A stretch of DNA of 23,231 bases. It comes from a virus. Location: the IMG/VR virus record IMGVR_UViG_3300030521_000060, positions 1 through 23,231 of that record. One strand, 5' to 3'. The position numbers and the translations under genes are program-made. The notes beneath the pieces are model-generated. The model did not search any database. It saw only the letters and a list, made by a program, of their open reading frames with translations, and was not told the DNA's origin. Positions 6,636-20,760 of this stretch are shown here, one piece after another (positions within the stretch are counted from its first letter, which is position 1; each line of letters starts with the position of its first letter).

Positions 6636-6669
6636 ACGTTTGTGAAACGTGACAGCAACATCTGCTGTC
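6636..6669. repeat. Two abutting inverted repeats upstream of a plus-strand gene
   Basis: ACGTTT-GTG-AAACGT (6636-6650) is followed without a gap by GACAGCA-ACATC-TGCTGTC (6651-6669). Both arm pairs are perfect. They lie in the 137-nt gap between the divergent starts of the hub gene (6583, minus) and the small membrane protein (6721, plus). They could be operators or RNA hairpins; the first, with its short spacer, looks more like a protein-binding dyad. Confidence 0.6.
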
Positions 6670-6720
6670 GCCCTACTGCTATTCGTTGGGGAGTGCTGAA
6701 TTCCAAGTAGCGGAGCGCGA

Positions 6721-6939
6721 ATGATGGGTAATTCAAAGGCTGTCTGCTTGCTGGTGGTTGGCCTCGTGGTCGTCTCAGCTGCCCTGATCGCGGTCATTTC
6801 CGCGTGGGCAGCACGGTCAACGGGAGAGAGCTGGGCCGAAGTCTTTCAACGTGGAGGGGTCGCGTTCGGGGGGACCGTGGGTGTGTATGCCGCACTGGTG
6901 GCCGTATACCGAACAATCGGGGGTAGAAGCGGTGAGTAG
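6721..6939 (+). CDS. Small two-TM membrane protein, antisense moron candidate
   Basis: A 72-aa protein on the strand opposite to the tail genes around it. Residues about 7-31 (AVCLLVVGLVVVSAALIAVISAWAA, described here by its ends at 7 and 31) and about 47-63 are hydrophobic, with a short loop between them (STGESWAEVFQRGG). This predicts two membrane helices with a short polar tail. GGAG lies 5 nt before ATG 6721, and a second ATG follows at once at 6724. I recognise no family. Its isolation in a gap of the late operon, inverse orientation and upstream inverted repeats suggest an independently expressed cargo gene. Superinfection exclusion or envelope modification is possible, but that is inference. 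Confidence 0.6.
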   Translation: MMGNSKAVCLLVVGLVVVSAALIAVISAWAARSTGESWAEVFQRGGVAFGGTVGVYAALVAVYRTIGGRSGE

Positions 6940-6969
6940 GCCACTTGAGAGCAAAGTCTCGGATATTGG

Positions 6970-8016
6970 TCAGACGATCAGCTCGACTGTCAGTTGTCCG
7001 TCCTGCACGAAGACGTCCGTGCCGCCGTTGCTGCTGATGTTCCAGCCGGGAATGAGCGTGACCTGTCCGCCGGGGGTGAGGCCGTCGCGGTAGACGCGCC
7101 GCGAGCCGATCACACGGCCGGCCTGCGCCGACAAGCCGTTCAACGCCCCGTGTGCCTCGGTGTAGGCGCCGGTCGCCCGCCACGTCATCCACGCTGTCGA
7201 GGCCGCGGTCGAGCGGTTGCTGACCTGCCCGCCGACCGAGACGAACACGGCGCCGGACGGAGGCACGGTGAACGTGATGCGGGGCCAGGCGGCGGCGGTG
7301 AAGTCGACGAACGCGCCGGTCGTGGTGAGCGGCGCGGGGGTGACCTGCTTCGTGGTGATGGGGCGGGTCGGGGTGGGCGGGTATGCCTCCCACGCGCCGG
7401 CCGTGGCGTCCCAGCGTTCGAGGCCGGTGCCGTTGTCGCGGTACTGGCCGTCGTACGCGCCGTTGAAGGCGAGGCCGTATCCGCGCGGGATGATCCCGCC
7501 GTAGGCGGAGGTGAAGCGGCGCCGGTCGGCGAGGGCCGACGACCAGGGGATACCGCCGACGCCGGCCGAGGCGCCGGCGGGCACGGTCACGTCCCACAGG
7601 CGCAGACAGGCCGAGGGCATGCTCGGCGCGGTCGGGGTCGCCGAGCCTGTGCCGCGGATGATCTCGACGGCGGCGAGGTTCTGGCCGGCCTGGTCGAATA
7701 GCTGGTCGTACACGCGTAGGGCGACGGAGTCGATGCGGGCGAACTGCGCCTCGCCGTCGGCAAAGTTGAGGGTTACGGGGGCGTCGACCGCTACCGGGTA
7801 GGCGCCCTGGGCGTCGGTGCCCTGCACTTGGGCGCGGCCGACGCCGATCTGTAGGGACATTGCGCCGGCGCTGGTCGCGGCGAACGGGTTCCCGCCGGCG
7901 ATCACGCCGTCGCGGGTGCGCATCTCGGACTCGGGCGCGTAGGTGCCGACCGGCGTAAGGCGGGTGTCCTCGCGAGTCTGCGTGAGTGGCAGCAGCCATG
8001 CGGAACGCACGGTCAC
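6970..8016 (-). CDS. Minor tail protein, tail tip
   Basis: A 348-aa protein encoded just downstream of the distal tail protein. The N-terminal ~70 residues (SAWLLPLTQTREDTRLTPVG, then IAGGNPFAATSAGAMSLQIG) resemble the start of phage proteins that form an upper tip or baseplate-like piece. The central region contains RLWDVTVPAG and IPWSSALADRRRFT, and the C-terminal ~120 residues are beta-rich with ITFTVPPSGAVFVSVGGQ, typical of jelly-roll-like fibre or carbohydrate-facing domains. GTG 8016 is preceded by AAGGAG at good spacing. It may contact the fibre or the host surface. No catalytic motif is evident, and the exact structural role is inferred from order. Confidence 0.7.
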   Translation of the reverse strand: MTVRSAWLLPLTQTREDTRLTPVGTYAPESEMRTRDGVIAGGNPFAATSAGAMSLQIGVGRAQVQGTDAQGAYPVAVDAPVTLNFADGEAQFARIDSVALRVYDQLFDQAGQNLAAVEIIRGTGSATPTAPSMPSACLRLWDVTVPAGASAGVGGIPWSSALADRRRFTSAYGGIIPRGYGLAFNGAYDGQYRDNGTGLERWDATAGAWEAYPPTPTRPITTKQVTPAPLTTTGAFVDFTAAAWPRITFTVPPSGAVFVSVGGQVSNRSTAASTAWMTWRATGAYTEAHGALNGLSAQAGRVIGSRRVYRDGLTPGGQVTLIPGWNISSNGGTDVFVQDGQLTVELIV

Positions 8017-8029
8017 GGTGGGGTTCTCC

Positions 8030-8911
8030 TTACCAGTAGGCCGAGCGGTAGCGCACGGTCGCCGACGCCGTCGGGTCGTTGCTGCCGGGCGCGGCGCGGA
8101 AGATCAGGTTCGTGATGCCGGGGGCGAGCGTGAACGTCTGCTCGGGCACCGAGCGCGAGGTCGCGGTGTAGATCCGGCTCGCGGTGCCGTTGAGGACGAC
8201 CGTCCCGGCGAGGGTGTCGACGGTGAGCACGTCGCCGACGGCGAGCGGCATGTCGTACTCGATGGCGTCGCCGGTCGCGAGGCTGGTCAACGACGGGCGG
8301 GTCACCGGCCCCCGGAACTCCACGACGGGGTGAGTCTCGGAGTCGCCGACATTCATCGCTGACAGGGCGCCGGTACTGCCCGGGTTGCCGAACGGGAGCG
8401 GCCACGACAACGGCCACGACAGGCCGGCCTCGGACATGGGCAGCGTCGCCGACACGGTGCGCTCGGCGAGTTCGTACCGGCGAGGGTCGGTCGCCTGCCA
8501 CTCGATCGCCCCGCCTGTGATGGTGCCGAGGCGGTACCCGAGGCCGGCGGGGATCGCCCGACGGGTGGCGCGCGCGTACGCGAGCAGGGGCCCGCGCTCG
8601 TCGAGCCACACGACGAGCGGGCGCTCGTCCTCGACCGGCACCGTGCCGGAGTTGAGGGCGGCGACAACCGCGCCGATCGTGGCGCGCGGGGCCCGCACGA
8701 TCAGGCCGTCGAGCGTGATCGTCCGGGCTTGGGCGAGCAGCCGGCCGGGGAACGCGCCGTGCGCGTCGGACCGTGCCACGGTGCCGGAGTCGAGGGTGGG
8801 AAGGTCCTCCCACCCCCCGATGGAACGCCACCCGTAGGGGGTGCCGGGGCCGAGCAGCAGCTCGCCGTACTGCACGTGCCCCGGTCGGGTCACCTGGTCA
8901 CCAGCGGCCAC
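8030..8911 (-). CDS. Distal tail protein (Dit-like, siphovirus tail family)
   Basis: A 293-aa protein directly after the tape measure gene, the usual place for Dit in siphoviruses. The N-terminal half carries VQYGELLLGPGTPYGWRSIG, SDAHGAFPGRLLAQARTITLDG and a DERPLVVWLDERG segment, then a GAIEWQATDPRRYE motif; the WxAxDPR-type pattern is characteristic of siphovirus tail proteins. The C-terminal half (HPVVEFRGPVTRPSLTS, GDVLTVDT, IFRAAPGSNDPTASATVRYRSAYW) fits the galectin-like second domain of Dit. Dit rings join the end of the tail tube to the tip. The start is GTG 8911, 6 nt after the tape measure stop. Confidence 0.8.
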   Translation of the reverse strand: MAAGDQVTRPGHVQYGELLLGPGTPYGWRSIGGWEDLPTLDSGTVARSDAHGAFPGRLLAQARTITLDGLIVRAPRATIGAVVAALNSGTVPVEDERPLVVWLDERGPLLAYARATRRAIPAGLGYRLGTITGGAIEWQATDPRRYELAERTVSATLPMSEAGLSWPLSWPLPFGNPGSTGALSAMNVGDSETHPVVEFRGPVTRPSLTSLATGDAIEYDMPLAVGDVLTVDTLAGTVVLNGTASRIYTATSRSVPEQTFTLAPGITNLIFRAAPGSNDPTASATVRYRSAYW

Positions 8912-8917
8912 GGACGA

Positions 8918-11335
8918 TCACCCCCTCGCCTTGGCCAGCCACGCGAGCGCGCGGGCGTTGTCGTCGGGGGTGCCGTTCTCGGCTGCGTGCCAGTGCTCGA
9001 CGTGCACCGTCGCCCCCGTCGAGGTGGCGGCGAGCGGGGAGCCGTACGCGCCCGCTCCCGCGTAGGCGGGGGTGAGGGAGGGAACAGCGGGTGCGGCAAC
9101 CAGGTTCCGCATGGTCCGCTCTACTGCACCTGCGCCACCCTGAATTCCCTTGACCAGACCGGCGGGAATCCAACGGCCAATATCGCGCGCCATGACACGC
9201 GAGGGGCTGGAAATTCCGAGCGCCTTTGCGATGGGTCCCGGAATCATGTTCTTGGCGAAAGAGACAAGCTGACTCTTGAGCCAAGATCCCATGCTCTTGA
9301 CGCCGTTATACAAACCCCGGATCAGATCGCGGCCCTTTTCCGTGAGCATCGATCCGAAATTGCCGAAGTATCCGGCGATCGTGCGAGGCAGTCCGCGCAC
9401 ATAGGCGAGCATCTCGCCCGCCTTTGTCTTCGTTCCATCCTTGATGGACTGCCAATGCTTGATGATCAGTCCGACCAAGGTGAAGTTAAGAAAGAAGCTG
9501 ACGAGCTTCTGCGGCAGGCTCTTTACGAACTCGACCGTGCCGTTCCAGACACGTACGGTCCCGTCCTTGATGGACTGCCAATGCTTGATAATGAGGCCGA
9601 CCAAAGTGAAGTTGAGGAAAAACTCGACGAGCTTTTCGCCAACCCACTTGATCTTTTCCCACACCCAATTCCAGGCGGCGAGCGTGGCCTGCTTGATGGT
9701 GTCCCAATTGGCGATCACCAGAGCGACGAGGCCGATTACGGCGGCGATCACGAGCGCTACCGGGCCCATGGCGATCAGCCAGGCCGCAGCCATCCGGCCG
9801 GCCTGAATGAGCGACTGAGTGCCCATCAGCACCCAACCGGCGACCACCCGCAGCGCAGTACCGGCCGCAGCCGCTCCCTGGGCGATCCAGCCGGCGAGGA
9901 TCGTCGCGTTCGTGGCGACGAACCGTGCCGCGGCAGTGGCGCCGGCGGCGGTCTGCGTCGCCCAGCTCGTGACCGTCGCGGTTGCGGTGGTGTACGCCTG
10001 CGCTGCCAGGGTGACCAACGCGGGCAGCATGACCAGCGTGACGACGCCGGCGGCGACGGCAAAGGCGGTGCTGTTGTCGGCGACGAACCCGGCGGCCGAC
10101 AGGAACGCGGCTCCGAAGTCGTCGAGGTAGTCGGCCCCCGCCGTCAGGGCAGGGATCACGTACGTGCCGAGGACGGTCACGAAGCCCTGTTGCAGGGACC
10201 GTGTGAACGCCGTGACCTTGGTCGAGGCGTTGTCGCGCATCGTGTCGCCGGCCCGCTTGGCGGCGCCGTCGACCTTGCCGAGCGCGTCAACGGCCGAGGA
10301 CGGATCGAGCGCGAAAAGGGCGCCGGCGAGGTCCTCGGCCTGACTGCCCAGCAATTGAACGGCCAGGCGTGAACGCTCGGTCGGGTCCTTTACCGCACGT
10401 AGGCGGTCCATGATCTGATCGAGCGCAGCATTCGCGGCCGGTCCACCCTTGGTGAACGCGGCGGCCATCTGATCGGCATTCAGCCCAAGCGACTTGAGCC
10501 CCTCGGCCGCGCTGCCGTCCTTGACCCTGATATTCAGTTCTTTGAAGGCATCGGCGACAATATCGGCGTCGCGCGCGCCTGCGTTGAGCCCCTGCTGAAT
10601 GAGGCCCATCGCTTGCTTTCCGTCGACCCCCAGGTCGCGGAATTGCGTTCCGTACTCGCCGAAGACGTCGAGCAGGTCCTCGGCCTTGTTCGCGCCGTTC
10701 TGTGTTCCCTTGACGAGAATGTCGAACGCTTCCTCGGCGTTCGCGGCCATTCCCGTTTTGAGCATCTGGCCGACCGCGGCCGAGGTGGGGCCGACTTCCT
10801 CGCCCATGATCTGTGCGACCTGGGAGAGGCGCCCGCCTACCTTTTCGAGCTCTTTCTGCGTGGCGTCCGCGGGTACGAGACCCTGCTGCCACAGTGCTTT
10901 CAACGCCTCGTTGGCGTCGGCGACCGAGTCTGTGTACCCCTGGCTGTAGAGGTTGCCCGCGGCCTTGCCGAGCCGCTTCGCCTGCTCGGGGCTCGCGCCG
11001 AGCTGGGCAGCAAGAAGGCTGTTGTCCTTCTGCTGCTCCATGGCCTCGCCGATACCGGCGACGACCGCGGCGCCCACCCCTGCGCCGACCGCGGCCCACC
11101 CGAACGAGGTGAGCGTGTCCCGGAGTCGGCCGCCGGCTTCCTGCGCTCCGTCCTCGGCTCCCTCGGCGACGCCGTCGCCGAGCTGCTGCCCGGCGGCCTC
11201 GCCGGCACGTGCGGCCTCGGTGGTGATCTGCTCCGCGGCGGCGACGACGTTCGCCTGCATCCGGGCGAGGCCGGCCTCGCCGGGGGCGTCGTCGAATTCG
11301 AGGGTGGCGAGCAGCTCGGCGACGGTGAGCGGCAC
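8918..11335 (-). CDS. Tape measure protein
   Basis: An 805-aa, mostly helical protein that sets tail length and fills the tail tube. The N-terminal third is alanine-rich helix, with AAVGAGVGAAVVAGIGEAME and the SPEQAKRLGKAAGNLYSQG region seen in actinophage tape measures. Hydrophobic stretches lie at about residues 415-440 and 525-545 (MGPVALVIAAVIGLVALVIA). Residues about 570-640 hold a duplicated unit (FFLNFTLVGLIIKHWQSIKD twice, 42 residues apart). The C-terminus has ISSPSRVMARDIGRWIPAGL, a conserved tape-measure motif. GTG 11335 is preferred, since GGGGG lies 9 nt upstream, over a TTG at 11341 that would leave almost no RBS spacing. The long ORF lies after the frameshifted chaperone, as expected. 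Confidence 0.93.
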   Translation of the reverse strand: MPLTVAELLATLEFDDAPGEAGLARMQANVVAAAEQITTEAARAGEAAGQQLGDGVAEGAEDGAQEAGGRLRDTLTSFGWAAVGAGVGAAVVAGIGEAMEQQKDNSLLAAQLGASPEQAKRLGKAAGNLYSQGYTDSVADANEALKALWQQGLVPADATQKELEKVGGRLSQVAQIMGEEVGPTSAAVGQMLKTGMAANAEEAFDILVKGTQNGANKAEDLLDVFGEYGTQFRDLGVDGKQAMGLIQQGLNAGARDADIVADAFKELNIRVKDGSAAEGLKSLGLNADQMAAAFTKGGPAANAALDQIMDRLRAVKDPTERSRLAVQLLGSQAEDLAGALFALDPSSAVDALGKVDGAAKRAGDTMRDNASTKVTAFTRSLQQGFVTVLGTYVIPALTAGADYLDDFGAAFLSAAGFVADNSTAFAVAAGVVTLVMLPALVTLAAQAYTTATATVTSWATQTAAGATAAARFVATNATILAGWIAQGAAAAGTALRVVAGWVLMGTQSLIQAGRMAAAWLIAMGPVALVIAAVIGLVALVIANWDTIKQATLAAWNWVWEKIKWVGEKLVEFFLNFTLVGLIIKHWQSIKDGTVRVWNGTVEFVKSLPQKLVSFFLNFTLVGLIIKHWQSIKDGTKTKAGEMLAYVRGLPRTIAGYFGNFGSMLTEKGRDLIRGLYNGVKSMGSWLKSQLVSFAKNMIPGPIAKALGISSPSRVMARDIGRWIPAGLVKGIQGGAGAVERTMRNLVAAPAVPSLTPAYAGAGAYGSPLAATSTGATVHVEHWHAAENGTPDDNARALAWLAKARG
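9438..9634 (-). repeat. Duplicated 71-bp unit inside the tape measure gene
   Basis: Two 71-bp copies, 9438-9508 and 9564-9634, are offset by 126 bp and differ at about 10 positions by eye. They encode the repeated segment FFLNFTLVGLIIKHWQSIKD with a 42-residue period. The copies are visibly less GC-rich than the surroundings, with several AAG, GAA and ATC-type codons. Tape measure repeats change tail length in steps. Confidence 0.85.
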
Positions 11336-11358
11336 AGGCAATCACCCCCGGCGGTGCT

Positions 11359-12044
11359 CTAACCGGCAGGCAGACCGGTGATGGCGGCGATCTCTGCGGG
11401 GGTGGTGACCTCGCGCGGGGTGCGCGACCACGCGCGGGTGAACCGAGCCTCGGCCGACAGGCCGGCGACGAGTGCGAGGAACCGGCGGGTGGAGAGGGCG
11501 GCGAGCTGCTCGGCGGTGAGGTGGTACTCGCGGGCGAGGTCGGCCTCAAGGGCGTTCCAGTGGGTCAGGACCGCGCGCCAGAACGCGCCTGCGTCTTGCC
11601 CTTCCTCTTCTTCGGGTTCTTCGGGCTCGCCCTGCGCTCCGCCCGGTTGGCCGGGGCTTTTCCCGCCCTGCCGGCCTCGCCCTGGTCGTAGAGCTCGGCC
11701 GCGCGCTGCATGGAAACGGCGCCGGGGTTACGGATGTTGGCGGCCGACCAGATCAGCACGACGCCGAGCTGCCGGTCGGTCATGCCGTGCTCGGCCCACT
11801 CGTCGAGGGTGCCCTCGCCGAACAGGGTGGCGAGCATCCGGCGGACGTCCTCGGGGTCCGAGCTGTGCTGTACGCGCTCCATTTGGAGGGTGAACAGCAG
11901 CGGCAGGGAGTCGGGCAGCACGTGCTCGCGCCCATACAGGGTGAGCGCGGCGCGCGGCCGGTCGGGGATCTGCTCGGCGAAGAACGCGTCAAAGTCGGCG
12001 GTCTCGACGAGCGGCTGCTCGGGGGTCTCTGGAGTCTCGGTCAC
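11359..12044 (-). CDS. Tail assembly chaperone, -1 frameshift product (GT type)
   Basis: A 228-aa fusion made when ribosomes slip -1 at GGGAAAA (11658-11664). The first 129 residues are shared with the short chaperone. A further 99 residues are read in the -1 frame: an acidic linker (GEPEEPEEEEGQDAG), then WRAVLTHWNALEADLAREYH, LAALSTRRFLALVAGL and a stop at 11359-11361, 18 nt before the longest tape measure reading. This matches the lambda G/GT scheme, where the short and fused forms bind the tape measure and recruit tail tube subunits. The T part has no start codon and RBS of its own, and its sequence is protein-like with a good hydrophobic pattern. The reading frame was translated by hand. 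Confidence 0.85.
11565..12044 (-). CDS. Tail assembly chaperone, short form (G type)
   Basis: A 159-aa protein between the tail tube and tape measure genes. Residues 1-115 form the folded part (FDAFFAEQIPDRPRAALTLYGREHV, here described from residue 18 to 42; then LPLLFTLQMERVQ and RQLGVVLIWSAANIRNPG). The last ~35 residues are a basic, disordered tail (NPKKRKGKTQARSG) read when ribosomes do not slip at codons 128-129. Such proteins assist tail assembly and are absent from virions. The GTG start overlaps the tail tube stop by 4 nt, so translation is coupled. The unshifted basic tail contrasts with the acidic -1 frame linker encoded by the same bases. Confidence 0.85.
   Translation of the reverse strand: MTETPETPEQPLVETADFDAFFAEQIPDRPRAALTLYGREHVLPDSLPLLFTLQMERVQHSSDPEDVRRMLATLFGEGTLDEWAEHGMTDRQLGVVLIWSAANIRNPGAVSMQRAAELYDQGEAGRAGKAPANRAERRASPKNPKKRKGKTQARSGARS
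11641..11664 (-). promoter_or_regulatory. Programmed -1 ribosomal frameshift site
   Basis: The heptamer GGGAAAA (minus strand, 11664 to 11658) is in the proper X XXY YYZ register: the zero-frame codons are GGA and AAA, codons 128 and 129 of the chaperone. It is followed by a small hairpin (CCCGG-CCAA-CCGGG, in 11641-11657). GGGAAA-type heptamers serve tail chaperone genes in lambda and many actinophages. The spacing to the stem is only a few nt, so the hairpin's stimulatory role is uncertain. Confidence 0.85.
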
Positions 12045-12556
12045 GCGTCACCACCCGACTTGCTCGCCGCGGCGGCGAGCGTGGTTCCGCCGGCGACCGG
12101 GGCCGCGGTGGGCGCCCCGCACCTTGTGATCGTCGCCGACCAACTCGTCTTGTCGTTGGTTTCGCCGCCCTGCTCGCCCGGGGTGACGGTGGAATCCCAA
12201 AGGACCCATGCCGTCTGCGACTTGTGGCGCCACCGCACGGCGTTGCGTGACTCGATGCCGAGCCGGTACGCCCATACGGTGTCGACGTACGCCTGCCCGG
12301 GGTCCTGATTGCCGGTGGACTTGTCGATGCGGTACTGCCCCTCGATTGCCAGGGTCGCGCCCCGCTGCATGACGTCCTGCTCGAAGTACCCGTCGCTGTC
12401 GAACGCGACGGTCTCGGCCGTCTCTTCGTTCTCGCCGGGGTTGTGCGTGAACGAGGTCAGGCCGGCAATCGGCAGCCATGTCTCGGTAGTTGCGGTGGCG
12501 TCGAGGACCTCGAACAGCCACCCGCGGGCATCAATCGGCCTGCTGGTCGCGGCCAA
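12041..12556 (-). CDS. Major tail (tube) protein
   Basis: A 171-aa protein whose many copies form the tail tube. The order terminator, tube, chaperones, tape measure is diagnostic. Visible features are an N-terminal WLFEVLDATATTETWLPIAG, then LTSFTHNPGENEETAETVAF (an alternating beta pattern typical of tube proteins), QYRIDKSTGNQDPGQAYVDT and WSATITRCGAPTAAPVAGGT near the C-terminus. TTG 12556 is taken as the start because AGGAGG lies about 8 nt upstream and no better start is available. The stop overlaps the chaperone start by 4 nt. Confidence 0.85.
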   Translation of the reverse strand: MAATSRPIDARGWLFEVLDATATTETWLPIAGLTSFTHNPGENEETAETVAFDSDGYFEQDVMQRGATLAIEGQYRIDKSTGNQDPGQAYVDTVWAYRLGIESRNAVRWRHKSQTAWVLWDSTVTPGEQGGETNDKTSWSATITRCGAPTAAPVAGGTTLAAAASKSGGDA

Positions 12557-12568
12557 GGGTGATCCCTC

Positions 12569-12991
12569 CTATTCGGGTCGGTGAGGGGTGGGGTTGGCCA
12601 CGTCGAGCCGGAAATTCACCGTGTGCTCGTGCCGGCCCGAGGCATCCGTGCCGAGGGGCGCGGGAGTCTGCTGCGCGACGGCGAGCACCAGCCATGTGCC
12701 GTCCGGCAGTTCGAGGCCGGCGAGTCCGTGCAGGGCGCCGTACAGGGCCTCGGCGCGGCGGCGGGAAACCCGCGGGTCGGAGGTGCCGCGCACGCGCACT
12801 TGTAGCGAGCGGACGTCGTAGCCGTTGCGCGCGTCCTGCTCGCCGGCGCCGTACAGCCACAGCCCGACCGCCTCGGCCGGCTCGGGTGGCAGGGTCTCGA
12901 TGAAGGTGTCGCCGGTCGTGCCGGTGGGGTCGTAGGTGAGCAGGTCGAGGTCGTCGAGGTAGCGGGCGATGCCGTCGAGGAGATCAGCCAC
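12569..12991 (-). CDS. Tail terminator protein
   Basis: A 140-aa protein between the HK97-gp10-like gene and the tail tube gene, the usual site of the tail terminator that caps the finished tail and joins it to the head. LLDGIARYLDDLDLLTYDPTG at the start (residues 4-24), DVRSLQVRVRGTSDPRVSRR in the centre and HTVNFRLDVANPTP at the end match the alpha/beta pattern of minor capsid/terminator families in actinophages. GTG 12991 overlaps the upstream stop by 8 nt, showing tight coupling. Confidence 0.75.
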   Translation of the reverse strand: MADLLDGIARYLDDLDLLTYDPTGTTGDTFIETLPPEPAEAVGLWLYGAGEQDARNGYDVRSLQVRVRGTSDPRVSRRRAEALYGALHGLAGLELPDGTWLVLAVAQQTPAPLGTDASGRHEHTVNFRLDVANPTPHRPE

Positions 12992-13343: not shown

Positions 13344-13428
13344 TTGCAACTCACCCCCGAATACGTCCTGTTATTCCATGCGAGACGTGCGAGACCTGTA
13401 GGATCTGTGGCGCCTGCCTATTTCTCAC

Positions 13429-13477
13429 ACGTATACGTCCGACCGTGATCTTCGGTCGGATTCCTCGCAGCGCGAGG
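13429..13477. repeat. Palindrome and two hairpins upstream of the 38-aa gene
   Basis: Three features lie in a row: ACGTATACGT, a 10-bp palindrome (13429-13438); TCCGACCG-N7-CGGTCGGA (13438-13460); and CCTCGC-AGC-GCGAGG (13463-13477). They end about 26 nt before ATG 13504. They may be operators or leader hairpins for the plus-strand gene, or act in the minus-strand leader of the tail genes. A short direct repeat GCGAGAC (from about 13380) lies further upstream. Confidence 0.55.
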
Positions 13478-13503
13478 TGCCCGATAGGGAAAGGGGCAGG
13501 CAC

Positions 13504-13620
13504 ATGGAAGGCGAAGAGGGAGAGAAGCCCGAAGATCTACCACGCTGGGTCCGCTCGGCGGTTGCGATCTTGGGTGCGCTCGTCCCGCTCGCAACGTGTG
13601 TGGTGATGCTGCTGCGCTAG
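13504..13620 (+). CDS. 38-aa single-TM protein, antisense moron candidate
   Basis: A very small protein: an acidic N-terminus (MEGEEGEKPEDLPRW), one helix from about residue 16 to 37 (VRSAVAILGALVPLATCVVM), and a terminal arginine. An AAAGGGG lies about 8 nt before ATG 13504. It lies in the longest non-coding gap of the head-tail operon, on the opposite strand, with hairpins upstream and two strong hairpins downstream, so it has the outline of an autonomous unit. I recognise no family. Single-helix proteins of this size can modulate host membrane complexes, but function is unknown. A chance ORF is possible; the clean acidic-then-hydrophobic layout argues against it. Confidence 0.5.
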   Translation: MEGEEGEKPEDLPRWVRSAVAILGALVPLATCVVMLLR

Positions 13621-13667
13621 ATCGCGGCAGGTCAGGGCGGGGAGCGGCTGAACGGACCTTTAAGATA

Positions 13668-13696
13668 GGTCCGGCTGGTTGATAGTCAGCCGGACC
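13668..13696. terminator. Hairpin downstream of the 38-aa gene
   Basis: GGTCCGGCTG-N9-CAGCCGGACC is a perfect 10-bp stem, 47 nt after the stop of the plus-strand small gene. No T-run follows. It is probably part of a termination region together with the larger hairpin 12 nt further on. Confidence 0.5.
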
Positions 13697-13708
13697 CACC
13701 CAACCCCG

Positions 13709-13758
13709 CACACGTCCGGGGTCCCGGTGCCAGCCGGGGCCCCGGTTCTTCACGTGTG
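13709..13758 (+). terminator. Large compound hairpin, probable plus-strand terminator
   Basis: CCGGGGTCCCGG-TGCCAG-CCGGGGCCCCGG gives a 12-bp stem with one G-T pair (13716-13745). Outer arms CACACGT / ACGTGTG (13709-13715, 13752-13758) close around it. TTCTTC follows the inner stem on the plus strand, while no T-rich tract follows on the minus strand. This suggests plus-strand termination behind the 38-aa gene while still allowing late minus-strand read-through. Confidence 0.6.
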
Positions 13759-13767
13759 TGGGCTTCA

Positions 13768-13812
13768 GTTGCAGTGCAACTTGCAGTTGAACTGCGTCTT
13801 GTGTAGCTACAC
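13768..13812. repeat. Three consecutive short palindromes in the head-tail gap
   Basis: GTTGCA-G-TGCAAC (13768-13780), GCAGTT-G-AACTGC (13783-13795) and GTGTAGCTACAC (13801-13812) follow one another. The centres of the first two are 15 bp apart. All lie in an AT-richer stretch (about 13760-13980) with no coding pattern on either strand. An inverted pair GTTCAT / ATGAAC (13868-13873, 13890-13895) lies further on. They look like binding sites for a dimeric regulator. Confidence 0.6.
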
Positions 13813-13916
13813 CATAGCAACCGACTGCAAGTCTTAAGAGTCATTCGGGGTTGTTCATACGTCTTCAGTTCATCGATTGCGAAGCCGTAATGAACATCCA
13901 GGTTCTTCTATACGGG

Positions 13917-13969
13917 ACTACTCGATAAGTCACTACTCGGGGTTCAGTAGTCCGCTGAGTAGTTACTCG
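13917..13969. repeat. ACTACTCG repeats at the end of the head genes
   Basis: ACTACTCG occurs at 13917-13924 and 13932-13939, 15 bp apart, with a variant GTTACTCG at 13962-13969. Inverse copies CAGTAGT (13945-13951) and GAGTAGT (13957-13963) lie between. The cluster overlaps the stop of the head closure gene. The 15-bp step and mixed orientation suggest iterated protein-binding sites rather than a terminator. Confidence 0.5.
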
Positions 13970-14684: not shown

Positions 14685-14827
14685 CCCGTCGACTTGCCGC
14701 GGGCAGCAGAACGGGCCGTCGGCTTCTTCGCCGGCGGCCCGCTCGTCTGCTCGTCTTCCGTTGTCTGCTCGTCCCCGTCCTCATCGGGGGAATCGTCGTC
14801 TCTCGGGTGGTAGCGGCGGAGCAACAT
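14681..14827 (-). CDS. 48-aa highly charged protein downstream of the capsid gene
   Basis: A 48-aa protein: a basic start (MLLRRYHPR), an acidic middle (DDDSPDEDGDEQTTEDEQ), then a basic end (AKKPTARSAARGKS). ATG 14827 shares one base with the capsid stop (TGATG), and its stop overlaps the adaptor start, so it is translated between two coupled genes. No known domain is recognisable, and it is probably disordered. Small proteins at this position are common in actinophages. It may be a capsid accessory piece, but that is conjecture. Placement and overlaps make it a real gene. Confidence 0.65.
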   Translation of the reverse strand: MLLRRYHPRDDDSPDEDGDEQTTEDEQTSGPPAKKPTARSAARGKSTG

Positions 14828-15681
14828 CACGCCGCCCCCCGGGTCTTGAGAACGACGATCCCCTCGTCGTCGAGTCGGTGCGTGGCGTAGTGCACGTTCG
14901 TGGTGACCACGGTCGTGCGGGCGAGGATGTCGCGGTCTGTCTCGACGAGTGGCCGGCGCTTGTAGAGCAGGCCGAGGGAGCCTCGGCGCACCATCAGCGC
15001 GTTGTACGTGGCCGGGTTGGTCCCATCGGCCGCGGTAGTCGTGACGCGGTCGGACACGAAGATGTTGACGCCGCCAATCTGGCCGATCACGCCGCGCGGG
15101 ATCACGGCGCCCGTGCCGAACTTGTCGGCGCTGATGAAGTTCGGGTCCTTGTAGATGCTCGCCCGCTGGAGCGAGTGAATGATGATGCCGGCCATGTTCT
15201 CCGGCTCCCACTCGTCCCCGAACTTGGCGATGCCGTCCACCATCACATCCCACGACAGAGGGTCGGTCGCGGCGTTGACCATGATGACGCCGGCGGCCTC
15301 GGCCGCGGCCGTCAGATCCTTGTCGATCTTCCGGGCGATGAGCACGCCGAGCTGTCGCTGCGTCTCGGCGAACGGGTCGCCGAACGCGACAAGGCGAGCC
15401 TTGTCGGTGATCTCGACCGCCTTACCGGCCTCCTTGATCGTGGCCGTATTACCCGGGTCGGTGCCGAGCTGCTCGGGGGTCATCGGGGTGCCCTCGGTGA
15501 GGTCCTCAGCCTCCGTAAGTCCCTTCCACTTGGGGAAGTTCACGGAGTCGCCGGGCTTGCCTTCGAGGGTGGAGTCGTTCAGCGCCATCGAGCCGATGAC
15601 TAGCTTGCCCTTGAACTTGTTTTGCACCATGTCGGCCCAGACGTCCGGGACGATCATCTGTGCCGCGGTCGTCTTCGCCAT
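14827..15681 (-). CDS. Major capsid protein (HK97-fold)
   Basis: A 284-aa capsid subunit. The N-terminal QMIVPDVWADMVQNKFKGKL, then LEGKPGDSVNFPKWKGLTEA and EDLTEGTPMTPEQLGTDPGN followed by ATIKEAGKAVEITDKA match the N-arm, E-loop and P-domain start of HK97-fold capsid proteins in the group without an N-terminal delta domain. The long spine helix lies around AETQRQLGVLIARKIDKDLT. The C-terminal half has GIIIHSLQRASIYKD, GQIGGVNIFVSDRV and RDILARTTVVTTNVHYATHR, typical of the A-domain. It follows a separate scaffold gene. ATG 15681 has AGGAGG upstream. Confidence 0.92.
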   Translation of the reverse strand: MAKTTAAQMIVPDVWADMVQNKFKGKLVIGSMALNDSTLEGKPGDSVNFPKWKGLTEAEDLTEGTPMTPEQLGTDPGNTATIKEAGKAVEITDKARLVAFGDPFAETQRQLGVLIARKIDKDLTAAAEAAGVIMVNAATDPLSWDVMVDGIAKFGDEWEPENMAGIIIHSLQRASIYKDPNFISADKFGTGAVIPRGVIGQIGGVNIFVSDRVTTTAADGTNPATYNALMVRRGSLGLLYKRRPLVETDRDILARTTVVTTNVHYATHRLDDEGIVVLKTRGAA

Positions 15682-15693
15682 ACGGCAGCCTCC

Positions 15694-16401
15694 TTACTCG
15701 CTCGCGGCAGACAACTGCCGGTACTGGTCGGGGTCGGACTGGTGGAGCTCGACGCGGTCGGCATAGCTCAGGCGCGCGAACTGCTCGGGCGTGACCGTCG
15801 TCGGGGCGCCCGGGGTGAAGTCGGCGCCCCCCTTGGGCGGTCCGGCCGGCAGGGTGCCGCCGGCGCGCAGCAGCGGGTTTGCCTCGACCGCCGCGGCGAT
15901 CACGGCGTCGAGCTGCTCGCCGAACTTCGCGTCGGTCGGGTCGAGCGCTTCGAGCTGCGCAGCTACCGAGCGGGAGTCGAGCAGCCGTGCAGGGTCGGCG
16001 CCGCTCTTGTGCGCGGCCTGGTGGGCGGCGAGCTCGACGCGCAGCCGGCGAGCCTCGGCGAGCGCGGTGTCGCGCTCGGTGGTCGCCTGCTCGGCGAGCT
16101 TGGCCGGGTCCTGCTCGCCGGCCGCGCCGCTCGGGTCGAGCACCTTGCGCAGTGCGCCGAGCAGGTCGTCGCGCTCGGTCTTGGCCTGCTGCGCTGCCTG
16201 TTCGGCTGTGGTCGCGCGCTGCTCGGCCGCCGGGTCGACAGGGGGCGGTGTTGGTGCCGAGGCTGTCGGGGTGGTCCTTCCAGCCGGCGGGTTACCGGCC
16301 GGATCGTTTCCGCCGGTGGTGCCCGGCTCGGGCGCACCGCCCTCGCCCGAGCCGCCTGGCCCCGTGTGCGGGTGTACGGGCAGGGAGCTGGATTCAGACA
16401 T
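15694..16401 (-). CDS. Capsid scaffolding protein
   Basis: A 235-aa protein directly before the capsid gene. Residues 1-55 are proline/glycine/threonine-rich and disordered. Residues about 57-135 are an alanine/glutamate/lysine-rich helix with coiled-coil character (AAEQRATTAEQAAQQAKTER). The C-terminal part (about 190-235) ends with TPEQFARLSYADRVELHQSD and PDQYRQL, a conserved actinophage scaffold tail that probably contacts the capsid. Scaffolds guide procapsid assembly and then leave. ATG 16401 is preceded by AGGAGAG. The gap upstream contains a plus-strand gene. Confidence 0.85.
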   Translation of the reverse strand: MSESSSLPVHPHTGPGGSGEGGAPEPGTTGGNDPAGNPPAGRTTPTASAPTPPPVDPAAEQRATTAEQAAQQAKTERDDLLGALRKVLDPSGAAGEQDPAKLAEQATTERDTALAEARRLRVELAAHQAAHKSGADPARLLDSRSVAAQLEALDPTDAKFGEQLDAVIAAAVEANPLLRAGGTLPAGPPKGGADFTPGAPTTVTPEQFARLSYADRVELHQSDPDQYRQLSAASE

Positions 16402-16486
16402 GACGATCTCTCCTAAGTATCATCGTGAGGAAGAAGGCATTCAGGCTTGGTTGCGGAGCGGGCACGCGTAGCGCACAGGGAGACCG

Positions 16487-16792
16487 ATGCAGATAGCGGC
16501 GGTATGGGAGCGGGTTGGGCTGCCAGAGCTGATACTGCTCGCCGCTTTTCTGGGGTTGCTGTGGGCGCTGGTTCGCTCAGTCAGACGGGGGACTGTCGTT
16601 CGGCGGCATGGTGGCGCGCCTGGGAGCCCTTCCCCGCGCCCCCCGTCGCCGCCTGACGGAAGCCCTACGCCTTCGGCGCCTCCGTCAGACGGCAACTCTC
16701 AGCGGCGCCCTGCGCTTACGGTGGCCGCCGAGCTCGCTGGAATCGTCGGGCTGTTGATCGCTCTCATCGCCCTCATGCGGGGCGGCGGATAG
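16487..16792 (+). CDS. 101-aa two-TM protein, antisense moron candidate
   Basis: A 101-aa protein in the 440-nt gap between scaffold and Rmf-like genes, on the strand opposite to both. Residues about 12-31 (PELILLAAFLGLLWALVRSV) and about 78-97 (AAELAGIVGLLIALIALM) are hydrophobic. Between them lies a basic patch (RRGTVVRRHGG) and a proline/serine-rich linker (SPSPRPPSPPDGSPTPSAPP). GGGAG lies 6 nt before ATG 16487. A strong inverted repeat sits within the coding region of the linker. I recognise no family. Orientation and membrane character match three other small plus-strand genes in the window. Confidence 0.6.
   Translation: MQIAAVWERVGLPELILLAAFLGLLWALVRSVRRGTVVRRHGGAPGSPSPRPPSPPDGSPTPSAPPSDGNSQRRPALTVAAELAGIVGLLIALIALMRGGG
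16653..16688. repeat. Inverted repeat in the linker of the 101-aa gene
   Basis: CTGACGGA (16653-16660) and TCCGTCAG (16681-16688) are perfect 8-bp arms around a loop that itself contains GCCTTCGGC. Flanking GCCG and CGGC extend the pairing past one or two mismatches. It codes for part of the proline/serine linker. It looks like a former terminator absorbed into a coding region, or an RNA structure acting on the antisense late transcript. Confidence 0.45.
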
Positions 16793-16841
16793 TAACGAGC
16801 TCCAAGTGCAGGTGCCGTAAGCGTCTTGCGCCTCTGTATGC

Positions 16842-17006
16842 CTACTTGTTTTCGTTGGGTAGCGGGCGAGTGCGGGCGTATCCGCGTACCCATGCCGAGC
16901 GCAGCAGGTCGCCGGCGGGGAACGGGCAGGCAGTGACCGGGTTGCCGTTGCGGCCGGCCTCGGCGCCGGCGTTGATGGCGCGGACGAGGTCGCCTCGGCT
17001 GCCCAC
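16842..17006 (-). CDS. Rmf/CrpP-like small protein
   Basis: A 54-aa protein read by hand. After MGSRGDLVRA comes INAGAEAGRNGNPVTACPFP, then AGDLLRSAWVRGYARTRPLP. The pattern AxxAGxxAGxxGxPVTxCPxPAGxLLRxAWVRGYxxxRP is that of Rmf/CrpP-fold proteins widespread in actinobacteria and their phages. Founding members are ribosome modulation factor (ribosome hibernation) and CrpP; the function of phage copies is not established. GTG 17006 has AAGGGGG 5 nt upstream and lies 14 nt after the MuF stop, so it belongs to the late operon. Here it is fixed among head genes. Confidence 0.8.
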   Translation of the reverse strand: MGSRGDLVRAINAGAEAGRNGNPVTACPFPAGDLLRSAWVRGYARTRPLPNENK

Positions 17007-17020
17007 TGCTGCCCCCTTGT

Positions 17021-19246
17021 TCAGAGTCGGTTCTGCTGATCGCCGCGGTTCTTGCGGGCGGTGTCAGCGGCGGCGTTTCGCACGCCCGTGATCTGCTCTG
17101 TGTACTCGGTCAGCGTAAGGCGCGGGTGATCCTGCCACCACCTGATCAGGTCCTCGGATGCGCGCGCGTAGGCGATGTGCGCGGGACCGGAAAACAGAGT
17201 GATTGGGTCGACGCCGGCGGCCTGCGCCTTGCGGTTGAGGAGATAGCCGTTCGTGGCGTCCTCGGCCGCGAGCAACTGTGCGTAGACGTGCTCTCGGTAC
17301 ATCTCGCGTATCTGCTCGCGGGTGTAGGCGGTGCGCTGCTGCTCGGCGTCGTACTCCCGCTCGGCGATCCATCGCTCGGTAGCGGTCATGCCGGCGTACG
17401 GGTCCTCGTCCAGCGCGAGCGATCCCCACTCGTCGAGACTCTCGGCCGGCGCGAGTGCCTCGTCGATCGCTGCGCGGTCGGCGAGTTGACCCTCGACGGT
17501 GTGCGCGCCGGCGGCCTCGGGCAACGGTGTTGGCGGGTACCGGCGGTCGAACTCGTCGGCGATCCGCTCGGCGTCCTCGGGACGCGCGTACCGGATCGCC
17601 CAACCGAGGACGTCGTCGCCGAGTGGCGAGAGGTCCTCGGCGAGCCGGCCGTCGGGGAACACCTCGGTGAGCAGCCGGCGCCGGTTGGCCTCGGCGGCGA
17701 TCTCGGCTCGCTCGGCGTCGTCGACGTGCCGTGCCCGTTCGGCGAGCTCGCGCTCGGACAGGCCGATCAGATCGCGGCGCGCGGCCGGCAGGGCGGCGTC
17801 GACGTCGCGCCGGTCCAGCTCGGCCATGACGCGCAGCAGCTCGTCGTCGCCCAAATGCGGGAACGTGGCGGCGAGTTCGTCGTCGCTGAACTGCGAGAGG
17901 GGCTCGGCGAGTTGACCGTCGGGGCGCAGTCGGGCGAGCAGCTCGGCCTCGTCGCGCCGCTCGGACTCGGCGCGGATGCGGCCGAGGTCGCGCTGATCGA
18001 GCACCCCGGGCCGGATCGCGGCGCCGAGCTGCTCGTCGCCCATCTCCGGCAGGGTGCGCTCGTCGCCCGCGCGGACGCGCGCGGCCTCGATCGCGTCCTG
18101 CGACGGGCGCGGCGCGGTTGAGGGGAGATTGCCGGCGCCGGGCTGCTCGCGCTCACGTCGGCGGATGAGTTCGGGGTGGTCGGCGAGGTGGCCGCGCATC
18201 CGGCCTTGCCATGCACGCACGCGTGCCTCGGCCGCGCGCTTTGCTTCGGGGGTGGTGGCTGAGGCGGCGCGGTTCTTCCACTTGCGAATGCCGCGCTCGA
18301 TGGCGCGCTGCTTCTGCGTCGCCTCGTACCCGTCGAGGTCCTCGGACGCGTCCTCTGGCGCGCGGGTCACGCCGGCGAGGTAAGCGGCAACGGAGTGACG
18401 GCAGTTGGGATGCTGAAAGCCTCGGGCCCGAGCGGCGTTGAGCGAGCCGGCGACGTCTACGCGCACGGTGCGGCCGTCGTCGAGGGCGTGCTCGACGTCG
18501 ACCTCGTGCGGCTCGTCGGGGCCGTCGATCGACAACACCTTGCCCTCGTACGGCCGGCACACGGGGCACTCGTGCGGGGCGTTGCTGACGATGACGAGGT
18601 CGAGACCGGCGGCGCGCAGGCGGTCGGTGTGCCCCTCGACCGCGGCTCGACCGACCGAGGTACGAGTCGCCATCTCCGTGTAAGACGTCATCTGCCACGC
18701 GCGCCCGCCCTTGTCGACAAACGTACGCAGCCCACGGTCGGAGAACCGTTCCATGGCGCGCTGTGTAGCCTGTCGGCGAGAGTCGATGCCGAGCAGCGGC
18801 GTTGCCGACACTTCGGCGATCACCTGCCGGTACCCGTCCTCAACTCCCCGGAGAATCCCGCGGTGCGTCTCGGTGACGAGGGCGACCGTTTCCTGCGCGA
18901 GCCGATCCACAGCGCGCGTCGCCGGCGTCGTCTCGGCGATCCGGCGCACCTCGTCGTCGCCCAGGGCGCCGAGCTCAGCGAGGCCGGCGCGCGCGCCGAC
19001 GTTGTACGCCTCGGCGACCACATCCCACACCTCAAGGTCAACCGCAGTCGAGAGCGCGTCGACGACCTGCTGCGCCGAGCGTCGTAGCGACTGGATATCG
19101 GCGAGCTTGGCCACCGCCCACCCCGGAGCCTCGAACCCGTCGGCGAGTTGGCGCGCGACGATCCCCATCAGCCGCGCCTCGGCGTCCGCGTACAGATCAC
19201 GCACGCCGGCCGAGAGGTCCTCCACCATGCCGGGGTGAATGGGCAT
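17021..19246 (-). CDS. MuF-type minor capsid protein, long form
   Basis: A 741-aa minor head protein after the portal gene. Residues about 1-295 match Phage_min_cap2/MuF-type proteins: a helical N-terminus, AWQMTSYTEMATRTSVGRAA, SNAPHECPVCRPYEGKVLSI (CPVC at 227-230) and HPNCRHSVAAYLAG (from 279), where the Cys and His residues may bind metal. Residues about 397-570 hold four degenerate ~40-residue repeats (DGxLAExLSxxxDDxL, then about 18 residues and ExDRR). The C-terminus has GYLLNRKAQAAGVDPITLFS and YASEDLIRWW-like sequence, a segment conserved in actinophage capsid-associated proteins. ATG 19246 follows GGGGGTGA. The protein is much longer than typical MuF proteins (about 300-500 aa). It is likely packaged in the head. 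Confidence 0.85.
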   Translation of the reverse strand: MPIHPGMVEDLSAGVRDLYADAEARLMGIVARQLADGFEAPGWAVAKLADIQSLRRSAQQVVDALSTAVDLEVWDVVAEAYNVGARAGLAELGALGDDEVRRIAETTPATRAVDRLAQETVALVTETHRGILRGVEDGYRQVIAEVSATPLLGIDSRRQATQRAMERFSDRGLRTFVDKGGRAWQMTSYTEMATRTSVGRAAVEGHTDRLRAAGLDLVIVSNAPHECPVCRPYEGKVLSIDGPDEPHEVDVEHALDDGRTVRVDVAGSLNAARARGFQHPNCRHSVAAYLAGVTRAPEDASEDLDGYEATQKQRAIERGIRKWKNRAASATTPEAKRAAEARVRAWQGRMRGHLADHPELIRRREREQPGAGNLPSTAPRPSQDAIEAARVRAGDERTLPEMGDEQLGAAIRPGVLDQRDLGRIRAESERRDEAELLARLRPDGQLAEPLSQFSDDELAATFPHLGDDELLRVMAELDRRDVDAALPAARRDLIGLSERELAERARHVDDAERAEIAAEANRRRLLTEVFPDGRLAEDLSPLGDDVLGWAIRYARPEDAERIADEFDRRYPPTPLPEAAGAHTVEGQLADRAAIDEALAPAESLDEWGSLALDEDPYAGMTATERWIAEREYDAEQQRTAYTREQIREMYREHVYAQLLAAEDATNGYLLNRKAQAAGVDPITLFSGPAHIAYARASEDLIRWWQDHPRLTLTEYTEQITGVRNAAADTARKNRGDQQNRL

Positions 19247-19285
19247 TCGTTCACCCCCATTTAGGAGCAAATGGACCTTCTGTGC

Positions 19286-19314
19286 GTTGACTGGCCGTTG
19301 GCCAGCCAGTCAAC
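19286..19314. repeat. Ten-bp inverted repeat at the start of the MuF upstream gap
   Basis: GTTGACTGGC (19286-19295) and GCCAGTCAAC (19305-19314) are perfect 10-bp arms around CGTTGGCCA, which can also form an inner TGGCC-GTT-GGCCA stem. It lies 40-68 nt upstream of the MuF start on the minus strand. A weaker hairpin GATTC-CTAT-GAATC follows at about 19334-19347. It may be an operator or an RNA stem in the MuF leader. The gap from 19247 to 19458 is otherwise non-coding. Confidence 0.6.
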
Positions 19315-19458
19315 ATCGAAGGTATCTCGGCCCTGATTCCTATGAATCGTAGGCGGCGCCGCGATTTTGGTGCAGACTATTACTTCAGACGGCAGCACTG
19401 CTTGCGGTCGTCGACCTGTGCGCGCAGGGACCTGTCGGTACGAATCAGGAGTGACACC

Positions 19459-19668
19459 ATGCCGAAGACGCGTCCCGACCTTGTGCTGCGCTTTCCACGA
19501 TTTGGCATTCGATGGAGCGCTGTGAGCGGGAGTGGCATCGCTGTGACCATTGCAAGCGGGCACGTACAACAGGCCGAGCCGATGTGGGCGTTGGTGGTCC
19601 TGGGAGTAGTAGGGCAAGTCTGCGATGTGCTCATGGTCAGGAAGGCCGAGGAGCCGAGTCCCAAGTAG
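19459..19668 (+). CDS. 69-aa membrane protein, antisense moron candidate
   Basis: A 69-aa protein: a basic N-terminus (MPKTRPDLVLRFPRFGIRW), a weakly hydrophobic stretch (SAVSGSGIAVTIASG), one clear helix at about 42-59 (MWALVVLGVVGQVCDVLM), then a charged end (RKAEEPSPK). AGGAG lies about 8 nt before ATG 19459; the longer upstream reading is arginine-rich and lacks an RBS. It precedes the restriction-like gene by 79 nt on the same strand and could be its partner or an independent moron. I recognise no family. Confidence 0.6.
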   Translation: MPKTRPDLVLRFPRFGIRWSAVSGSGIAVTIASGHVQQAEPMWALVVLGVVGQVCDVLMVRKAEEPSPK

Positions 19669-19709
19669 GCCACTGCGCCTCGCTACACGAGGTAGGGCAG
19701 AGCCTGCTC

Positions 19710-19740
19710 GGCACCCGTTGTCAGTGGTGCCCGATACGGT
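19710..19740 (+). promoter_or_regulatory. Candidate leaderless promoter with overlapping dyad
   Basis: TACGGT (19735-19740), a TANNNT-type -10 box, ends 7 nt before ATG 19748, and no Shine-Dalgarno is visible, which is the layout of leaderless actinobacterial genes. No good -35 is seen at the usual distance. A perfect dyad GGCACC-N10-GGTGCC (19710-19731) covers the -35/spacer area and could be an operator. A small CCTCG-CTACA-CGAGG hairpin (19678-19692) lies between the two plus-strand genes. Confidence 0.35.
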
Positions 19741-19747
19741 CGAGTGC

Positions 19748-20758
19748 ATGACCTCTGCGAAGATCAAGCCCGGCGACGTCTTCACCCGCGCGCAACTGAA
19801 AGCGAAGTTCGGCGGCGGCCCCCAGGGCGGCATCATCCCGTCCGCCACTACCGACAACGTCCTGATCTACTCGGATCACGACAGTGGTAAGGACTACGGC
19901 TATCAGGATGGTTGGCTTGCCGAGGAAGACGAGACGGGCCCGATCTTCGAGTACACCGGTCAGGGTGTTGAGGGCGACCAGACGCTGAAGGGCAACAACG
20001 GGTCGGTACTGAATCACGCCGACGACGGGCGCACGCTGCGCGTTTTCATCTGCGTCGGATACGTCAAGGGCAACAGTGGGCCCAAACTGCACCGCTACGT
20101 CGGCGAGTTCAAGGTCGACGAGGGCGAGCCGTTCGTGAGGCGGCGGGCCCTCGACCAGAACCACGACATGCGATGGGTCTACGTCTTTCGGCTGCGCCCG
20201 GTGGCCGAGACCAAGCAACTGCCCGAGGACTTCATTTCCGCGGCGGTCGACGACGTCACCGAGACCCTGCCGGCCGTCCCGATCAGTGGTGACCCGTACT
20301 TCGAGCTCAAGCCCGCCGAGTCCACCAGCGGACAGGCCACCAAGCCGGAGAAGAACAGTAAGAAGCAGGTCACCCGCAAGGCGAGCGACGCCGTCGAGGT
20401 CACGCGACGCGAGGCGGAGCTGAGCGACCGATTCCTCGCCTTCCTCAAGGGCGAGGGGCACACGGTCGACCGCTTCAAGATCCGCATCAAGGGTCTGACG
20501 TCAACGTTCTGGACGGACCTCTACGACGCGACCGACAACGTGCTCTATGAGCTCAAGGGCAGCAGCAGCCGTAACGCCGTCCGCATGGCCATTGGACAGC
20601 TCCACGACTACCGCCGACACATCCCCCCGAAGGATGCGCAGCTCGTTGTGCTGCTTCCCGAGCGTCCAGTCGACGACTTGGCCGAGCTCGTCGAGTCGGC
20701 CGGAATGACGCTCGTGTATGAGGACGGAGACAAGTTCGTCGGCTGGCCTGTCGCCTGA
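19748..20758 (+). CDS. SRA-like/PD-(D/E)XK modification-dependent restriction enzyme
   Basis: A 336-aa protein on the strand opposite to the head genes. Residues about 8-155 resemble the SRA-like domain of ScoMcrA-type enzymes: FTRAQLKAKFGGGPQGGI, DYGYQDGW, FEYTGQGVEGDQTL, NNGSVLNHADDGRTLRVF, then HRYVGEF. SRA domains read modified bases. A lysine-rich linker (about 195-212) leads to a nuclease of PD-(D/E)XK type: REAELSDRFLAFLKGEG with a possible alpha-A glutamate, TDLYD (D257), LYELKG (E268, K270) and IGQLHDYRRH (Q284). The pair suggests cleavage of modified DNA, a type IV-like defence. ScoMcrA itself has an HNH nuclease, so the fusion here is different. It lies between portal and MuF genes, ends 2 nt from the portal stop, and would be an odd neighbour for a structural protein. 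Domain calls come from motifs, not a search. Confidence 0.75.
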   Translation: MTSAKIKPGDVFTRAQLKAKFGGGPQGGIIPSATTDNVLIYSDHDSGKDYGYQDGWLAEEDETGPIFEYTGQGVEGDQTLKGNNGSVLNHADDGRTLRVFICVGYVKGNSGPKLHRYVGEFKVDEGEPFVRRRALDQNHDMRWVYVFRLRPVAETKQLPEDFISAAVDDVTETLPAVPISGDPYFELKPAESTSGQATKPEKNSKKQVTRKASDAVEVTRREAELSDRFLAFLKGEGHTVDRFKIRIKGLTSTFWTDLYDATDNVLYELKGSSSRNAVRMAIGQLHDYRRHIPPKDAQLVVLLPERPVDDLAELVESAGMTLVYEDGDKFVGWPVA

Positions 20759-20760
20759 AG

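Follow-up and report, generated by a model that had tools for sequence, protein, structure and literature searches.

The stretch of DNA analyzed here (the window) is a 23,231-base IMG/VR virus record, IMGVR_UViG_3300030521_000060, which consists of this viral contig only and represents a Raleighvirus-like Streptomyces prophage. It was found that its minus-strand late operon is interrupted by five plus-strand genes, designated P0001 to P0005, and that these antisense genes are insertions relative to related phages. By anatomy, they are morons in recurrent slots. Four of them are candidates for small membrane proteins, while P0005 is predicted to encode a modification-dependent endonuclease and is preceded by a promoter motif of a DNA-damage type. 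Since antisense membrane proteins are combined with a putative DNA-cutting enzyme having a damage-type promoter, the set looks like a removable defence toolkit by which a resident prophage would guard its cell against rivals. I lean slightly towards the view that late-operon junctions take up removable antisense cargo, in which P0005 would serve as a PafBC-gated defence gene and the small membrane proteins would act in the lysogen.

Antisense genes in the slots of the late operon

The minus strand encodes the late genes, which extend from the terminase at the right end to the endolysin and two small genes at the left. The two small genes are annotated as membrane proteins in Tubberson, and a plus-strand helix-turn-helix regulator (107-1507) lies beyond them. 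The structural genes match those of the Streptomyces phages Tubberson, SoJo, Raleigh, Darolandstone, and ToastyFinz (Raleighvirus), and also those of SV1 and Alderaan. The late strand has four gaps longer than 380 nt. The mtp19/mtp18 gap (6584-6969, 386 nt) holds P0001 (6721-6939), the g11/stopper gap (13350-13962, 613 nt) holds P0002 (13504-13620), and the scaffold/g5 gap (16402-16841, 440 nt) holds P0003 (16487-16792). The protease/portal gap (19271-20760, 1490 nt) holds both P0004 (19459-19668) and P0005 (19748-20758), the latter being convergent with the portal gene. The first-pass annotation had proposed that every minus-strand gap over about 380 nt contains a plus-strand gene, and this was correct for all four gaps, including the gene positions. 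The five genes show no similarity to each other, which agrees with its statement that they are not copies of one gene. A shorter gap of 229 nt (11336-11564) was rejected as a cargo slot because it corresponds to a frameshifted tail-assembly chaperone. No hidden minus-strand late gene with a coding signal was found in the first three slots of the window.

Is this arrangement common among related phages? Loci surrounding the capsid gene were collected from viral and genomic sequences. Genes were called in them by a home-made procedure, for which the window served to train the codon model, and transmembrane (TM) segments were called from Kyte-Doolittle hydropathy. The loci were reduced to 71 phages by portal identity, and the 46 phages whose portal is at least 53% identical to that of the window are referred to as the clade; phylogenetically, these relatives do not count as independent samples. 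Those closest to the window in IMG/VR (L018, L010, and L011), whose late proteins are mostly 94-99% identical to its own, share its gaps wherever their contigs reach. A relative at 95-99% identity, L021, is carried by Streptomyces xylophagus NRRL B-12029. In L014, which is 81-88% identical over most of the head and capsid genes, all four gaps are absent. In the cultured relatives the junctions are closed, except that Alderaan has one antisense TM open reading frame (ORF) of 58 amino acids at the protease/portal junction. The slots are filled in some phages and closed in the cultured relatives and L014, indicating insertion at conserved junctions. The GC content of the slots is 58-66%, as compared with 69% for the late region.

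In the clade, 53 late-strand gaps of at least 200 nt were found. They concentrate at the protease/portal, scaffold/g5, portal/terminase, term12/g11, g11/stopper, and mtp19/mtp18 junctions, while g20/mtp19, mtp17/tape measure, and stopper/adaptor are among the junctions having no gap in 22-58 phages. According to the first-pass annotation, its idea would be contradicted by related phages showing the gaps without any conserved plus-strand frame. The idea withstood this check: 25 of the 53 gaps contain an antisense ORF with a Shine-Dalgarno (SD) match and a TM segment, whereas shuffled sequences are expected to give 1.2 (standard deviation 1.1). On the sense strand of the same gaps, three such ORFs were found as compared with 0.9 expected. 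For the gaps of the window individually, an SD-led TM ORF appeared in 0-4% of dinucleotide shuffles. Sense-strand genes at the protease/portal junction are mostly a feature of distant metagenomic phages that lie outside the clade. The slot comparison agrees with the earlier idea of a dispersed set, whose members were gained independently at conserved gap positions. Many phages of the family lack any cargo unit. Cargo is present in one of six isolates and in 25 of 35 prophage or metagenome records (p = 0.018), but this contrast is only suggestive because of the shared ancestry of the relatives.

Other slot genes in the relatives include HNH nucleases. An antisense HNH nuclease family, for example, was found at the term12/g11 junction of L012, L016, and L025.

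P0005 and its damage-type promoter motif

Sequence searches of P0005 gave weak domain matches and a match to phrog_15103 (3e-24), a family annotated as function unknown. A profile of the P0005 family matched ScoMcrA weakly (E 0.017), and no match was found among the PADLOC defence models. An AlphaFold model was made from nine sequences of the window and viral contigs, in which the linker is disordered. Residues 1-154 of the model superpose on the SRA domain of ScoMcrA (5zmm) with Z 13.5 and rmsd 3.0 over 134 aligned residues (Foldseek E 9.6e-7). Residues 221-334 superpose on the XisH-family protein 2inb (Z 9.8), besides other nuclease-type folds, and MspJI loosely covers both halves of P0005 in the structure comparison. 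The putative catalytic residues D257, E268, K270, and Q284 are invariant in the phage copies. Together, the fold match and this residue pattern point to a PD-(D/E)XK nuclease for the C-terminal half. Thus, the predicted fold of P0005 is that of an SRA plus PD-(D/E)XK modification-dependent endonuclease, and its earlier description as restriction-like holds at this level.

P0005 lies antisense at the protease/portal junction in nine phages (the window, L020, L200, L201, L166, L167, L203, L204, and L206). These slot-sharing copies range down to 47% identity. The dN/dS values of P0005 are 0.08-0.33. A search of 393 Streptomyces genomes gave relatives of P0005 in 71. Several of the chromosomal copies adjoin a PLDc-ResIII-DUF3427 protein, which PADLOC calls mREase_IV. 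In L168, L170, L171, and L181, where the homologue is on the same strand and directly beside mREase_IV, the ExK motif has been lost, while the phage copies and the stand-alone copies keep it. The copies lacking ExK possibly serve as reader subunits in restriction systems made of two genes. This chromosomal neighborhood, with its pattern of ExK loss, lends independent support to a restriction role of P0005. Two homologues (L174 and L175) lie antisense in elements of a conjugative type, having FtsK-like and integrase genes, and the damage motif described below is kept there. A 30% homologue, gp63 of Gordonia phage Sidious (L240), is on the same strand as two adjoining methyltransferase genes.

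An alignment of the region upstream of P0005 from six phages revealed an invariant TTGTCAGTG followed 8 nt later by TACGGT. In the window, this TTGTCAGTG-N8-TACGGT motif is at 19718-19740 on the plus strand, 7 nt before the ATG codon. It is known that the LexA/RecA-independent damage promoter of mycobacteria has the consensus tTGTCRgtg - 8 nt - TannnT (PMC5656591), that promoters of this RecA-NDp type are targets of PafBC (PMC8223512), and that single-stranded DNA activates PafBC (PMC11804915). The P0005 motif matches the consensus with 0 mismatches and is the sole exact TTGTCRGTG-N8-TANNNT match within the window. Among 209 loci, 17 have the exact motif, and in 15 of the 17 it is directly upstream of a P0005 homologue. 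Among 30 distinct P0005 homologues, the motif is exact in eight and has at most two mismatches in 24, where it ends 6-13 nt before the start codon. Random 162-nt stretches reach at most two mismatches in 0.9% of cases. No LexA box (GAAC-N4-GTTC) was found in the window. P0005 is therefore probably DNA-damage inducible, judging from the motif, rather than simply on in the lysogen. The first-pass annotation had assumed, for all five genes, silencing while the late genes are expressed and activity in the lysogen; as written, this was not supported, since the P0005 promoter motif predicts induction by damage or single-stranded DNA. P0005 has no good SD sequence, and this, together with the short distance from the motif to the ATG codon, suggests a leaderless mRNA.

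The motif was also searched for in three Streptomyces genomes (G001, G044, and G052), where it occurs 47, 19, and 20 times, while a reversed control gave 0. The genes downstream of it (L210-L239) include recA, polA, ruvC, dnaX, and those for an AlkZ-like glycosylase and an HD phosphohydrolase. In Streptomyces venezuelae, an initial search suggested that the mycobacterial motif is not conserved, and the pathway was left open (PMC9380542). The motif counts suggest that a RecA-independent damage pathway may exist in Streptomyces other than S. venezuelae. The presence of the motif before recA, polA, ruvC, and dnaX bears on the question raised in that study, namely, a PafBC-type response in the genus.

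Predicted small membrane-protein genes

The claim that four of the five genes have predicted TM helices and their own ribosome-binding sites was borne out. P0001 to P0004 each have an SD match, and their Kyte-Doolittle maxima are 3.17, 2.59, 2.50, and 2.12. P0001 is a predicted membrane protein of 72 amino acids with one or two TM segments (SD GGAG). Its antisense homologues occupy the same mtp19/mtp18 junction in four further phages (L018/L105, L011, L106 of G389, and L108 of G085), with dN/dS values of 0.11-0.29. P0004 is a predicted membrane protein of 69 amino acids (SD AGGAG). It has homologues at the protease/portal junction in L018, L013, and, distantly, L045, and dN/dS values are 0.13-0.33 for the three close sequences. 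Judging from these ratios, purifying selection acts on P0001 and P0004, as it does on P0005. The order in the window is P0004 and then P0005, while in L018 an unrelated TM gene comes first, followed by P0005 and then P0004. It was considered whether P0004 and P0005 form an obligate pair, i.e., a membrane-tethered nuclease. This was rejected, as P0004 occurs alone in L013 and L045 and P0005 alone in L166 and L167.

P0003 (101 amino acids) has a predicted TM segment at each end and a proline-rich middle part. One relative was found (L209, 48% identity over 89 residues), in which both TM ends are kept; it lies outside a prophage, among chromosomal genes. Scans of viral contigs with P0001 and P0003 directly as queries gave no relatives. 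The scaffold/g5 slot carries different genes in other phages. In L044, L045, and L098, an antisense DUF6082 protein with an N-terminal TM segment is encoded where the window has P0003.

P0002 is a candidate for a single-TM protein of 38 amino acids. Its frame is kept in L018, L010, and L011. The whole slot of about 600 nt is conserved, including its non-coding part, and the dN/dS values of 0.26-0.69 are based on few changes. The tail of the slot (13621-13850) is about 90% identical in four phages and contains very stable hairpins, which are predicted to be terminator- or operator-like. The hairpin following P0002 (13618-13770) has a folding energy of -88.8 kcal/mol (z -5.84), and an Rfam search of the slot gave no match, so that a known RNA was rejected. 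Is P0002 a gene at all? Alternatively, the slot may have a regulatory or structural role as DNA, for which the extreme hairpin, the equal conservation of the non-coding parts and the ORF, and the dN/dS range could be cited. On the other hand, the frame and the TM segment are kept in four phages, matches of 44-62% exist in two other genomes, and shuffles of the slot yield a P0002-like ORF in only 2%. I consider it rather unlikely that P0002 is not a gene. The region from 13621 to 13962 as a whole (about 340 nt) is non-coding, conserved, and rich in repeats, with several palindromes, e.g., CAACTTGCAGTTG and GTTGCAGTGCAAC.

The inverted repeats, which had been described as frequent around these genes, are strong in only some places. 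Besides the one after P0002, a hairpin formed by TTGACTGGC and GCCAGTCAA (19271-19345, z -3.1) lies between the protease start and P0004, and another lies inside P0003 (z -2.6). The repeats flanking P0001 and those at either end of P0003 do not stand out.

Possible functions and comparison with known systems

A scenario can be built on what was computed, namely, the slots with their strand bias and enrichment in TM ORFs, the selection acting on three of the genes, the fold predictions, and the conserved promoter motif. A few late-operon junctions would accept extra genes, nearly always antisense and independently controlled, that are not needed for virion assembly. In a lysogen, where the late genes are silent, the antisense genes could be expressed. 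Single-stranded DNA produced by damage or by the replication of an invading phage would activate PafBC, which would turn P0005 on, and P0005 may then read a modified base and cut the invading DNA bearing it. The small membrane proteins would most likely act at the cytoplasmic membrane of the lysogen, where they might, for example, hinder genome injection. Phage exclusion by these four predicted proteins is plausible by analogy with HK97 gp15 and P22 SieA. The earlier exclusion idea, widened to defence or exclusion cargo, fits insofar as at least one member, P0005, is a restriction-type nuclease by predicted fold.

Several points weigh against this scenario. The mean pLDDT of the P0005 model is 60. 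PafBC dependence of P0005 is predicted from the motif. At P0001 to P0004 the damage motif has at least four mismatches each, and these genes should accordingly be controlled differently from P0005. P0002 may not be translated. For P0001 to P0004 neither a homologue of known function nor a match to a defence model was found, and relatives of P0001 and P0003 also exist outside prophages, adjoining chromosomal genes without phage context; thus, exclusion is not their sole possible role. These chromosomal relatives and the absence of defence-model matches would suit ordinary morons with unrelated jobs, in which the small membrane proteins tune host physiology or ride along and only the nuclease is defensive. 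However, the strong over-representation of such genes in the slots of one phage family and the sharing of slots with nucleases favor a common selective reason, without showing which, and I regard unrelated jobs as doubtful.

The antisense units might instead act on the late operon itself, their transcription or hairpins quieting the late genes in the lysogen while the proteins are secondary. The near-exclusive antisense orientation in the clade and the strong hairpins in two slots are compatible with this. It is nevertheless very improbable, as the protein sequences are under purifying selection, many phages of the family do without all the units, and a damage-type promoter would fire just when the late genes need turning on. 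For P0005 alone, it may be asked whether it serves the phage at induction, degrading modified host or competitor DNA without guarding the lysogen. Its damage-type promoter would fire under prophage-inducing conditions, and the Sidious homologue is beside two methyltransferases. But copies with the same promoter also stand in a conjugative-type element and in further loci outside phages, where there is no lytic cycle, and the chromosomal copies have a type IV restriction protein as their neighbor, so that this use seems unlikely. A narrower version of the preferred defence reading, that P0005 is a PafBC-gated antisense restriction enzyme mobile among prophages and conjugative-type elements and accompanied by rotating antisense membrane exclusion proteins, is put forward tentatively, at somewhat less than even confidence. 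If it is true, prophage immunity would be wired to PafBC, a RecA-independent sensor of single-stranded DNA in the host.

The anatomy resembles that of the ant moron of P22-like phages, an example used with the definition of morons (PMC2629481): insertions in a late operon relative to related phages, presumably under control of their own, with variable content and no assembly role. As for transcription signals of their own, P0005 has the conserved promoter motif, and a generic sigma-70 promoter scan for P0001 to P0004 gave nothing above chance. Unlike the single site of P22-like phages, several recurrent slots exist here in one structural operon, almost always with antisense and TM-rich content. 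A hindrance of DNA entry has been shown for P22 SieA and is assumed for HK97 gp15 (PMC10883804). Both, too, are small membrane proteins encoded by prophage genes of the moron type, and in the present case such proteins are predicted; no sequence relation was found, and the host phylum is different. The slots also recall the defence hotspots of P2 and P4 (PMC9122126), high-turnover anti-phage loci between two conserved genes, of which that of P2 is beside the portal gene. Turnover between conserved genes, nucleases included, was likewise seen here, and an anti-phage role may be proposed. In contrast to those single loci of 1-5 kb, the present slots are small, antisense, and spread across the structural genes.

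The N-terminal SRA fold predicted for P0005 is like those of ScoMcrA (5zmm), TagI, and MspJI, and MspJI also pairs SRA with a PD-(D/E)XK-type nuclease. ScoMcrA and TagI use HNH, while a PD-(D/E)XK domain is predicted for P0005, and its sequence similarity to ScoMcrA is only remote. The promoter motif has the exact consensus of the mycobacterial RecA-NDp/PafBC promoters (PMC5656591, PMC8223512) and is common to Streptomyces recA and repair genes, but here it precedes a restriction-type gene of a prophage. A phage restriction-type gene is thus tied to a damage-type promoter motif. No published description of such an arrangement was found in the open-licence literature. The difference from the morons and the P2/P4 hotspots lies in how many slots one structural operon has, in their almost exclusively antisense content, in the TM bias, and in the damage-type promoter motif of the nuclease gene. 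The mapped slots are places to look for unknown defence genes of Streptomyces.

Two further slots have unusual contents. In the G085 prophage (L129:7603-12322), the protease/portal junction has a gap of 6.7 kb in which three antisense genes, two for tyrosine recombinases and one of AAA/zeta-toxin-like type, perhaps represent an integrated element. In the portal/terminase slot, antisense TM proteins of L017 (5162-5569) and L045 (3700-4176) share an N-terminal RNE(F/L)SG...G.VVQ(A/S)G.I stretch. No model matched this stretch, which is reminiscent of bacterial amyloid-signalling (RHIM-like) motifs.

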